Source: Salinimicrobium tongyeongense
GTDB lineage: Bacteria; Bacteroidota; Bacteroidia; Flavobacteriales; Flavobacteriaceae
NCBI RefSeq assembly: GCF_026109735.1
Contig: NZ_CP069620.1
Location: 3,100,001 to 3,164,000, forward strand
DNA length: 64,000 nt
Reading direction: 5' to 3'
The notes beneath the pieces were generated by a model. That model did no database searches. It was not told the origin of the DNA and saw only the letters and a list, made by a program, of their open reading frames with translations. Positions 11,189 through 24,843 of this stretch are shown in pieces; within the stretch, counting starts at the first letter, position 1; each line of letters starts with the position of its first letter. A program made the translations under genes and the position numbers.

Positions 11189-11203
11189 TTTTCTGTAGTC
11201 AGG

Positions 11204-11248
11204 AAATCTCAAATCTAAAATCTCACATCTCACATCTCATATCTAATT
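11204..11248. repeat. short tandem spacer array (AATCTCACATCTCA type)
   Basis: The spacer between efp and the second lpxD-like gene consists almost entirely of imperfect repeats of (A)AATCTCA / CATCTCA / ATCTAA units. It is one of several such arrays in this window, each with its own unit. Confidence 0.7.
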
Positions 11249-11250
11249 AA

Positions 11251-14417: not shown

Positions 14418-14422
14418 ATTTT

Positions 14423-14449
14423 ATATTGAATATTGAATATTTAATATTA
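14423..14449. repeat. short TATTGAA spacer repeat
   Basis: ATTGAATATTGAATATTTAATATT: reiterated and self-complementary 8-base units directly after the fabG stop. Confidence 0.5.
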
Positions 14450-14450
14450 A

Positions 14451-17465: not shown

Positions 17466-17522
17466 ATGAAAGCAAAACAACTACATCATCATCATTCTCA
17501 TTCATTCGCTCTTGCGAGGTGA
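17466..17522 (+). CDS. hisL: his operon leader peptide
   Basis: An 18-codon frame, MKAKQLHHHHSHSFALAR, with five His codons among seven consecutive codons and a stop at 17520. It is followed by a strong terminator hairpin (17550-17585) and then by hisG. The order His-rich peptide, terminator, hisG is the classical layout of transcription attenuation: when charged His-tRNA is scarce, ribosomes stall on the His codons and an alternative fold prevents the terminator. The function is inferred from this layout; the pairing of an antiterminator was not computed. Confidence 0.88.
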   Translation: MKAKQLHHHHSHSFALAR

Positions 17523-17549
17523 GATTGGTATGTGTATAACTCATATTTC

Positions 17550-17585
17550 AAAAACCCGTTTGAGCAGCTCAAACGGGTTTTTTTA
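17550..17585 (+). terminator. his attenuator terminator
   Basis: A near-perfect hairpin, AAACCCGTTTGAG paired with CTCAAACGGGTTT around a CAG loop, followed by seven T. It lies 27 bases after the stop of the His-rich leader peptide and 37 bases before hisG, so termination here would silence the whole his operon. Confidence 0.88.
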
Positions 17586-17621
17586 TTCCCTTTGGTCTGC
17601 CTGAACATAAAAACAACCAAA

Positions 17622-21967: not shown

Positions 21968-22004
21968 TTAGACGCTAGACGTTAGATCTTAGACTTTAGA
22001 TTAA
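21968..22004. repeat. TTAGAC-type spacer array in the his operon
   Basis: Imperfect reiterations of TTAGAC / GTTAGATC / TTTAGATT fill the gap between hisB and hisH (about 37 bases). Similar but not identical units occur around the S23-like gene. Confidence 0.6.
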
Positions 22005-22009
22005 AAGAA

Positions 22010-22603
22010 ATGAAAATAGTAATTATAGATTATGGCGCGGGGAATATACAGAGCATAAAATTTGCTTTGGAGCGGCTGGGCTACACAGGAATCTTGAGCA
22101 GTGATGCCGACGAAATAAAGTCGGCAGATAAAGTCATTTTTCCAGGAGTAGGAGAGGCGAGTTCAGCCATGAAAAAGCTGAAGAGCACCGGTCTTGACAA
22201 AGTAATTCCGCAGCTGAAGCAGCCGGTGCTGGGAATTTGCCTGGGCATGCAGCTGATGTGCAATCGCTCGGAAGAAGGTGATACCGAAGGCTTGGGGATT
22301 TTTGATGTGGATGTAATTCATTTTGAAAAAAACTTGAAGGTGCCGCACATAGGCTGGAACCGGATAAAAGAGCTCAAAAGTGACATTTTTGAGGGGATAT
22401 CTGAAAATGAGTTTGTATACCTGGTGCACAGTTTTTACGCGCCCATTTGTTCTGAAACCATTGCCAAATGTGACTACGGAGTAAATTATTCTTCGGCGCT
22501 ACAAAAAAATAATTTTTACGGAGTACAATTTCATCCGGAAAAGAGCAGTGAAGCGGGGGAGAAAATTCTTGAAAACTTTTTAAAGTTAGATTTACGAAGT
22601 TAG
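22010..22603 (+). CDS. hisH: imidazole glycerol phosphate synthase, glutaminase subunit
   Basis: Class I glutamine amidotransferase that feeds ammonia to HisF. The 197-aa protein has IIDYGAGNIQSIKFALERLG, FPGVGEASSAM, the nucleophile Cys77 in GICLGMQLMC, VPHIGWNRI, and the His-Glu pair in VQFHPEKSSEAG. Its last codons (KLDLRS and stop) are read from the first unit of the 33-bp tandem repeat at 22583-22648, so the repeat has apparently replaced the native 3' end. The catalytic part is unaffected. Confidence 0.95.
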   Translation: MKIVIIDYGAGNIQSIKFALERLGYTGILSSDADEIKSADKVIFPGVGEASSAMKKLKSTGLDKVIPQLKQPVLGICLGMQLMCNRSEEGDTEGLGIFDVDVIHFEKNLKVPHIGWNRIKELKSDIFEGISENEFVYLVHSFYAPICSETIAKCDYGVNYSSALQKNNFYGVQFHPEKSSEAGEKILENFLKLDLRS

Positions 22604-22648
22604 AAGTACAAAGTGAAGTTAGATTTACGAAGTTAGAAGTACGAAATG
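22583..22648. repeat. two tandem 33-bp repeats overlapping the end of hisH
   Basis: Units 22583-22615 and 22616-22648 are head-to-tail copies differing at only two positions; each starts AAGTTAGATTTACGAAGTTA. The hisH stop codon lies in the first unit. An inverted, diverged version of the same sequence follows the S23-like gene at 23021-23058. Confidence 0.9.
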
Positions 22649-22665
22649 AGTATAAAATTAAGTCA

Positions 22666-23022
22666 ATGAAAGATTTAAAATTAAGGACAAAGGAATTTGC
22701 TGTTGATTGCTGGAAGTTTTGTCACAAGATTCCTCATTCGCGAGAGTATAATGCGTATGTAAATCAACTCATCAGAAGTTCGAGTTCTGTAGGAGCAAAC
22801 TACCGGGCAGCTCAGAGGGCAAAGTCAACAGCTGATTTTATTAATAAACTAAAAATTGTTGAGGAAGAAGCAGATGAAAGTATGTATTTTCTTGAGCTTT
22901 TTCTTGAAATACTTGATCATGACTTGGAGGAAGTAAAAGCTTTGCATTCTGAAGCGAATGAAATAATTTCTATTGTTGTAGCTTCAATAAATACGGCCAA
23001 AAGAAATCAAAAGGAGAGATAG
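22666..23022 (+). CDS. four-helix-bundle protein (S23 / rRNA intervening-sequence type)
   Basis: A 118-aa helical protein with KLRTKEFAVDCWKFCHKIP, NQLIRSSSSVGANYRAAQRAKS, and INKLKIVEEEADESMYFLELFLEI, the signature of the S23/IVP four-helix-bundle family first met in 23S rRNA intervening sequences. Family members occur as scattered stand-alone genes in many bacteria; their function is unsettled. Here the gene stands between hisH and hisA, in the operon's direction, and is bounded by inverted TTAGATTT-type repeats. It has nothing to do with histidine synthesis that I can see, and looks like an inserted cassette. Base composition is slightly more AT-rich than the his genes. Confidence 0.9.
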   Translation: MKDLKLRTKEFAVDCWKFCHKIPHSREYNAYVNQLIRSSSSVGANYRAAQRAKSTADFINKLKIVEEEADESMYFLELFLEILDHDLEEVKALHSEANEIISIVVASINTAKRNQKER

Positions 23023-23058
23023 AACTTCTAAACTCTAACTTCTAAAATCTAACTTCAA
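23021..23058. repeat. inverted counterpart of the 22583 repeats
   Basis: AACTTCTAAACTCTAACTTC and following bases are, on the other strand, a diverged copy of the AAGTTAGATTT...GAAGTTAGAAG units on the other side of the S23-like gene. The array ends at the hisA ATG. Confidence 0.8.
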
Positions 23059-23778
23059 ATGAGGATCATTCCAGCAATAGACATCATCGACGGAAAGTGT
23101 GTTCGACTTTCTCAGGGTGATTACAATTCAAAGAAAATATATAATGAGAATCCGCTGGAGGTGGCGAAGCAATTCGAGGATCACGGCATACAATATTTGC
23201 ACCTGGTGGATCTTGACGGCGCCAAGTCAAAACATATCGTAAATTATAAGGTGCTTGAACAAATAGCTTCGGGAACTGGCCTTCAAGTTGATTTTGGCGG
23301 CGGGCTCAAATCGGATAAAGATTTGGAGATCGCCTTTAACAGCGGAGCTTCCCAGGTCACCGGCGGCAGTATTGCGGTTAAAGACCGGGATGTTTTTCTT
23401 TCGTGGCTTGAGAAGTACGGCAGTGAAAAGATCATTTTAGGTGCAGATGCGAAAGACGAAAAAGTTGCAGTGAGTGGCTGGTTGGAAGAGTCGGAAGAGG
23501 ACTTGATTCCTTTTATTCAGAAGTACTTTGAAAATGGAATTCAGTATGTGATCTGCACTGACATCGCTAAAGATGGAATGCTGCAGGGCCCTTCTTTTGG
23601 ATTATATCAAAAGATACTGCAGGAAATTACCGGCATAAAACTTATCGCTTCGGGAGGAATATCCCTATTTGAAGATCTTCCTAAACTGCAGGAAATAGGT
23701 TGCGAAGGAGCAATTTTAGGGAAGGCGATCTATGAAAATAAGATCAGTTTAAAGCAACTGGAAGAGTTTGTTTTATAA
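23059..23778 (+). CDS. hisA: ProFAR isomerase
   Basis: Amadori isomerase 1-(5-phosphoribosyl)-5-[(5-phosphoribosylamino)methylideneamino]imidazole-4-carboxamide isomerase, a (beta/alpha)8 barrel. The 239-aa protein begins [21 protein letters not shown] with the catalytic Asp, and has [61 protein letters not shown] (second catalytic Asp) and [13 protein letters not shown]. It follows directly on the repeat array 23021-23058 and is followed by another array at 23783. Confidence 0.96.
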
Positions 23779-23782
23779 ATTT

Positions 23783-23856
23783 AAGCACCAAATTCCAAGC
23801 ACCAAATTCCAAGAACCAAATTCCAAGCACCAAATTCCAAGCACCAGCACCAAATC
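23783..23856. repeat. tandem 14-bp repeat array (AAGCACCAAATTCC)
   Basis: Four head-to-tail 14-bp units from 23783 to 23838 (three identical, the third reading AAGAACC...), followed by partial units AAGCACCAGCACCAAATC. The exact reverse complement of the unit, GGAATTTGGTGCTT, occurs at 24828-24841 on the far side of hisF. Confidence 0.92.
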
Positions 23857-24688: not shown

Positions 24689-24689
24689 T

Positions 24690-24716
24690 GATCAGTGTTC
24701 GGTGTTCAGTGTTCAG
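24690..24716. repeat. GTGTTCAGT-type short repeat after hisF
   Basis: ATCAGTGTTCGGTGTTCAGT and following GTTCAG: three 9-base reiterations directly behind the hisF stop. Confidence 0.6.
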
Positions 24717-24810: not shown

Positions 24811-24843
24811 TTTGGAATTTGGTTATTGGAATTTGGTGCTTCC
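24811..24843. repeat. inverted 14-bp repeat units before hisIE
   Basis: Two tandem 14-bp units, GGAATTTGGTTATT (24814-24827) and GGAATTTGGTGCTT (24828-24841). The second is the exact reverse complement of the unit in the array at 23783. Together the arrays bracket hisF as an inverted pair. Confidence 0.88.

Follow-up and report, generated by a model that had tools for sequence, protein, structure and literature searches.

The window analysed here is a stretch of 64,000 nt of Salinimicrobium tongyeongense (assembly GCF_026109735.1, contig NZ_CP069620.1, positions 3,100,001 to 3,164,000 of the forward strand), and it contains a histidine (his) operon in which a gene of the S23 family lies between hisH and hisA, enclosed by two arrays of degenerate heptamers, or arms, that are complementary to each other (Table 1). 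This arrangement is probably an intervening sequence (IVS)-type cassette, formed by arm, S23 gene and arm, that resides in a messenger RNA (mRNA) operon and in which the S23 gene is looped out by the paired arms. The same arm-S23-arm architecture recurs across Bacteroidia, and the complementarity of the arms is found within a locus and seldom between loci.

The product of the S23 gene has 118 amino acids and exceeds the curated cut-offs of two profiles, PF05635 (55.5 bits, cut-off 33.8) and TIGR02436 (78.4 bits, cut-off 24), which places it in the S23/IVP family; its predicted structure consists of four helices (pLDDT 95.7), and its closest named relatives are mostly from Salinimicrobium. An earlier interpretation of the sequence by itself (the sequence-only reading) had described such a gene between hisH and hisA, preceded by two 33-bp tandem units and followed by the unit in inverted, diverged form, and these three elements are borne out. 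The left units (22583-22615 and 22616-22648, 33 bp each) are 94% identical, and the array that they form contains the stop codon of hisH (22601-22603). On the right, 23034-23057 is 92% complementary to 22614-22637 (24 nt), 23034-23059 is 88% complementary to 22579-22604, and there are two 14-nt direct copies, at 23023 and 23037; the arrays follow a period of 7, not a fixed 33-bp unit. Since the left array starts within hisH and the right arm ends 1 nt before the ATG of hisA, the cassette fills the whole gap between the stop of one gene and the start of the other, where S23 is the only gene (no search for transposases was made elsewhere in the window). The inverted copy exceeds chance by score, by word count and by shuffling (see below): the inverted score of the his locus with its own right flank is 38, and at most 25 with the right flanks of the other ten S23 loci in the genome, while a 17-base arm word, allowing up to 3 mismatches, occurs four times in the 64 kb, always at the his locus, against 0.12 expected.

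Table 1. Features of the hisH-S23-hisA region (positions within the window).
Feature	Positions	Strand	Remark
hisH, upstream host gene	22010..22603	+	frame runs into left arm
Left arm, degenerate heptamers (GAAGTTAGATTTAC/GAAGTTAGAAGTAC) in two direct 33-bp units	22583..22648	+	
5' strand of predicted RNA stem, inner left unit	22614..22637	+	partner 23034-23057
S23/IVP gene, four-helix bundle, in loop	22666..23022	+	profile matches, predicted structure
Right arm, inverted C-rich copy of left-arm word	23023..23057	+	
hisA, downstream host gene	23059..23778	+	PF00977, 244 bits

The 495-nt his segment is predicted to fold with an energy of -122.3 kcal/mol (z -3.96; 0 of 100 shuffled versions as good), with the strand from 22614 onward pairing with the region that ends at 23057 and the S23 gene placed in the loop; for the arm duplex itself (22614-22637/23034-23057) the prediction is -28.7 kcal/mol. 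Across the genus, the predicted arm duplexes have a median of -24.1 kcal/mol, compared with -13.5 for mismatched arms, and 69 of 114 fall in the best 5%. According to these models, the his transcript is predicted to form an arm stem that encloses S23.

The pairing of arms is not peculiar to this site. When an inverted score of at least 26 between left and right flank is taken as the threshold, it is reached by 6 of the 11 PF05635 genes of the genome (one 3.51-Mb contig); for 8 of the 11 their own right flank outscores those of the ten other loci, the words vary between loci, and among the 110 cross-pairings only four score 25-28. In the genus set (114 S23 genes from 11 genomes, genes with less than 80 nt of flank excluded), the threshold is reached with the own flank in 57 genes, in the direct orientation by 15% and in 1.5% of 12,294 non-orthologous pairings. 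For 96 of these genes the two neighbours are co-directional, compared with 25 of the 59 genes of the window. At the level of the class, for which the set consists of the best-scoring family matches (1 of 29 new loci lacked a usable gene plus flanks), 19 of 28 S23 genes reach the threshold, as do 4.2% of 756 cross-pairings; the family is present in 79 of the 99 class genomes sampled, in up to 23 copies. Control genes from tandem operons with gaps on both sides (141 in number) reach the threshold in 13.5% of cases in the inverted orientation and in 20.6% in the direct one. The low frequency of inverted repeats in these controls, set against 42% of 139 S23 genes, associates the inverted excess with S23. 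Permutation of arms among orthologues indicates that at the his junctions the two arms evolve together: own arms are better than swapped ones in all but 1 of 10,000 permutations at hisH-hisA (21 of 22 loci, L104, with a broken gene, having been dropped), in all but 11 of 10,000 at hisA-hisF (14 loci) and in all but 251 of 10,000 at hisB-hisH (5 loci), and genus-wide 0 of 20,000 permutations were as good.

The heptameric character of the arms has to be distinguished from their inversion. In S23 gaps with inverted arms, the excess of matches at lags 7, 14 and 21 is +0.19, +0.18 and +0.13, so that these spacers show the period of 7 of heptameric STRR-like repeats; control operon gaps give +0.13, +0.10 and +0.07, and coding DNA -0.01, 0.00 and +0.03. 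Given that the period of 7 also appears in control gaps, heptameric gaps are a general feature of these genomes, to which S23 adds the inverted pairing. The arms also have a strand polarity: G-richness marks the left arm in 44 of 57 pairs and C-richness the right arm in 47, a pattern that holds in 14 of 17 junction groups (p 0.013). Measured from the upstream stop codon, the left arm starts at a median distance of 1 nt (52 cases), and the right arm ends at a median of 9 nt ahead of the ATG where there is an ATG within 40 nt (36 of 57). Such polarity is more in line with arms that act in the transcript than with a site for a recombinase.

The sequence-only reading had envisaged the same flanks at other S23 loci, an expectation that failed, given that the words are local and it is the inverted pairing that recurs. 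The his word is found at ten further sites in the genome, none with an S23 gene nearby, and because the arms are not common to the loci and the word occurs at S23-free sites, a recombinase that recognises one fixed repeat is unlikely. A shared DNA end-repeat, sought by matching all left arms with all right arms, was rejected in view of the low non-orthologous rate given above. A classical DNA transposon, or a unit of the miniature inverted-repeat transposable element (MITE) type, with a transposase that acts in trans on its terminal inverted repeats, would account for inverted ends, for replacement as a unit and for the one S23 lineage found beside unrelated neighbours (described below); against it stand ends that are locus-specific and seldom common to copies in one genome, the transcription-strand polarity of the arms and a gap with no other gene, and we give this explanation next to no credence.

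The known structure that the his cassette most recalls is the IVS in the 23S rRNA of Coxiella burnetii, in which, according to the accessible part of PMC4990558, a terminal stem of 28 bp has an S23p open reading frame (ORF) in its loop, the whole measuring 428-444 nt, tandem GACAGAT heptamers precede the ORF and RNase III cuts at the first repeat. According to the same text, it was still unclear, over 25 years after IVSs had been discovered, what they and the S23 proteins carried by some of them do and how they arose, and the IVS cases in it sit in rRNA. As in Coxiella, as far as that text goes, the S23 gene of the his cassette is on the sense strand and inside the loop, the complementary enclosing ends (by sequence and by prediction) form a stem of 24 nt at 92%, the length from stem end to stem end is 444 nt, tandem heptamers are present in the 5' arm, the distribution is sporadic and there are signs of horizontal exchange. 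Unlike the IVS described there, the his cassette is in a protein operon and not in rRNA helix 9, 25 or 45, each genome has numerous copies, the majority of them with a word of their own, and S23 is under strong purifying selection, whereas in Coxiella it is called "expendable"; cleavage by RNase III, described for the Coxiella element, would be a putative step in the his cassette. The cassette is therefore IVS-like in its anatomy while falling, by its site, outside the IVSs in the strict sense, which sit in rRNA and are excised by RNase III, and we call it an IVS variant living in mRNA operons because ORF, stem, size and heptamers are shared with the Coxiella element and the rRNA site is not.

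Among the eleven genus genomes read at the hisH-hisA junction (G001 being outside this comparison), the cassette is present in G000 (the genome of the window), G005, G006, G007, G010 and G011, and it is absent together with its arms from G002, G003, G004, G008 and G009. Directly before its stop codon, hisH of the window ends in NFLKLDLRS, the six carriers of the genus end in NFLKLDLRS or NFLKLDLRG, and the cassette-free G003 and G008 end in NFLKI. The empty his gaps are unrelated in sequence, and no exact insertion boundary or target duplication can be defined in them; that of G002 has a cassette-free hairpin with a score of 23. At four junctions of the genus, a score of 26 is reached at 16 of 26 filled and 0 of 14 empty sites, the short empty gaps limiting the score that is possible. 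Where junctions were compared, S23 and its arms are either absent together or replaced together. In the yqgF-def gap (the names ffh, folD, yqgF, def, trp and those of cell-wall genes are our reading of translations), the word changes on both sides at once, being of the TAAGG type in G000, G007 and G011, of the TATTGAA type in G002, G006 and G008, and mixed in G003 and G010.

Junction L001 is the most instructive, with four S23 lineages between the same two genes (identity 85-98% within and 37-74% between lineages), three of which have their own word in both arms, the right arm of the fourth (G004 and G005, scores 25 and 19) being less clear. Between G000 and G003 both neighbours are 88% identical and identity is 50-60% in 60-nt windows across S23; between G000 and G002 the neighbours are 80-81% identical, S23 91% and the arms 90% and 88%, and between G000 and G009 the neighbours are 83-87% and S23 89% identical. 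The flanking genes follow the species and the cassette (arm, S23 and arm) does not, and the simplest reading of these identities is that the cassette moved between strains after its surroundings had diverged. In general, movement is slow. The S23 lineages of the genus are mostly bound to their junction (31 label changes, with a minimum of 28, for the 107 of 114 rows that were long enough), which makes most of the pattern a matter of inheritance combined with loss or replacement; relocation within the genus shows directly in one lineage only (92-93% protein identity), which has unrelated neighbours in G003/G002 and in G010, with 84% DNA identity between G003 and G010 across S23 plus the inner arm. 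The notion of a cassette put forward from the sequence is thus right, because gene and arms behave as a unit and were exchanged at L001, and its reach was understated; it has to be tempered as regards mobility, which is slow and mostly gives way to inheritance.

Beyond the genus, 80 relatives were kept of 131 found, and 42 of these, from many genera, are in the his operon: 22 at hisH-hisA, 14 at hisA-hisF, 5 at hisB-hisH and 1 after hisF (L179, which has a second copy at hisA-hisF). The others comprise 27 at two junctions of a cell-wall/division operon, 2 in a trp operon and 9 at other places; for the most part a lineage is specific to one operon, with its junctions interleaved. Repeated hopping between the two cell-wall junctions was considered and is not proven: the tree needs 4 changes, but a single origin of the ftsW-murG group is not rejected (approximately unbiased (AU) test, p 0.164). 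In two other genera, the hisH-hisA gap is occupied by what reads as an acetyltransferase-like gene (L030 in G036, L034 in G028), and one metagenome-assembled genome (MAG) of Christiangramia, probably a mixed bin, has two his loci (L101 and L109) whose S23 genes are 92% and 77% identical to that of the window.

The residence of more than half of the kept relatives in one operon is what could be expected if S23 were an ordinary member of the his operon with a role for the host, flanked by common heptameric spacer repeats whose inversion is incidental. To judge by a dN/dS of 0.04-0.07 at the his site (four of five comparisons, those with a defined dS), similar to that of hisA, the S23 gene is under purifying selection, and such selection would be equally expected whether the gene serves the host or the element. 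This is one of several points that count against a cassette: heptamer words are widespread in spacers without S23, the his arm word itself being dispersed; 57 of 114 S23 genes in the genus and 5 of 11 in the genome are below the arm threshold; the cell-wall junctions give no own-arm signal (swapped arms do as well in 8,278 and 2,204 of 10,000 permutations); groups 0, 3 and 14 account for most of the genus-wide permutation signal, the other 14 of 17 groups not being significant alone; and the three 23S genes of the genome (about 2.83 kb, matching the whole model) contain none of its 11 S23 genes. The arms are therefore not universal, as half of the genes are below the threshold and the S23 genes of the cell-wall operon lack an own-arm signal. 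A purely resident gene, for its part, is difficult to reconcile with the location of S23 at differing his junctions, its absence from five genus genomes, the link between inverted arms and S23, in-frame stops in the S23 of 3 of 80 relatives and, at the hisH-hisA gap of L028 (G012, another genus), a different and broken S23 gene (its pieces score 63.8 and 14.1 bits); the his copy of G007 also has an in-frame stop. A host role of this kind seems unlikely to us, and an IVS-type cassette remains the reading that we prefer.

Heptameric repeats of intergenic regions have been described before. The accessible part of PMC4679880 (MacGregor) reports TAACTGA repeats in Beggiatoaceae, Cyanobacteria and some Bacteroidetes, including Gramella forsetii, and suggests for them a role in translational control or gene rearrangement. 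As in the S23 cassettes, these are direct repeats with a period of 7 that lie between genes, in many cases close to a start codon; the repeats of that text consist of one word in direct orientation, whereas the cassettes have many words, inverted around a gene, and "S23" occurs 0 times in the text seen. A search of titles and abstracts, with subscription journals mostly outside it, gave no link between S23 genes and hairpins in operon gaps, nor does the accessible part of PMC9723704 contain anything on S23 cassettes. In Flavobacterium columnare, a "four helix bundle protein" between the genes for guanylate kinase and nicotinate-nucleotide adenylyltransferase is listed as a phage element (PMC5524665, Table 5, seen in part), and it may be another S23 cassette.

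Heptamer hairpins without S23 were considered as empty elements and set aside, the period-7 gaps not being richer in hairpins (z of -2 or lower in 18 of 56, compared with 44 of 104 others). Clear single cases exist at L316 (G000:C1:2560254-2560384, z -3.23), where the cassette-free hairpin carries the his-arm word, and in the hisB-hisH gaps of L141, L162 and L139. Within the window, hisF is flanked (23783-23838 and 24812-24843) by one word in opposite orientations (AAGCACCAAATTCC on the left, GGAATTTGGTGCTT on the right) with no S23 gene, and more heptameric-looking arrays are seen at 11189-11250, 14418-14450, 21968-22009 and 24689-24716, all between co-directional genes.

The helical bundle of S23 resembles, at the level of fold only, Avd of the diversity-generating retroelements (PDB 4dwl, 8ub7 and related), and it could be imagined that an Avd-like S23 and a reverse transcriptase (RT) copy the hairpin RNA into new junctions. 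Unlike those retroelements, the his gap has no RT, the only PF00078 match genome-wide is weak and about 190 kb away, and a spread of S23 dependent on RT was rejected, RT counts showing no association; retro-mobility of this type is very improbable. Weak structural matches (AMPA-receptor complexes, others) were set aside as common helical bundles; a sequence match to Cmr5 has an E-value of 0.0013.

For the IVS-type cassette, the following sequence of events can be proposed. The heptameric arms would pair in the his transcript, with the S23 gene held in the loop, and the stem, if formed in vivo, would be cut, most likely by RNase III; the cut would free the S23 segment and separate the upstream from the downstream message, and insertion into an operon may be tolerated because of this separation. 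S23, as an Avd-like helical bundle, may bind the stem or its RNA and help to keep or spread the cassette. Most copies are now inherited vertically, with occasional replacement between strains at the same junction. A broader proposal, which we regard as speculative and rather doubtful, is that mobile mRNA intervening sequences form a large class in Bacteroidia, namely S23 cassettes at operon junctions with their own heptamer word in both arms, in which one process rewrites both arms together and so keeps them complementary, S23 contributes to this rewriting or to insertion, and the IVSs of 23S rRNA are a rare branch of a mainly mRNA-dwelling element. If S23 cassettes live by the dozen in ordinary operons, non-pathogenic marine bacteria become a system in which to test their role; some of the heptameric repeats between genes would be explained, and many biosynthetic operons of a major phylum would carry a removable RNA hairpin between genes.

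Elsewhere in the same operon, positions 17466-17522, ahead of the first his gene, likely encode an attenuator leader peptide (MKAKQLHHHHSHSFALAR, closed by a stop codon), and the Rfam His_leader model matches 17486-17586 with 33.1 bits, below its gathering score of 49.
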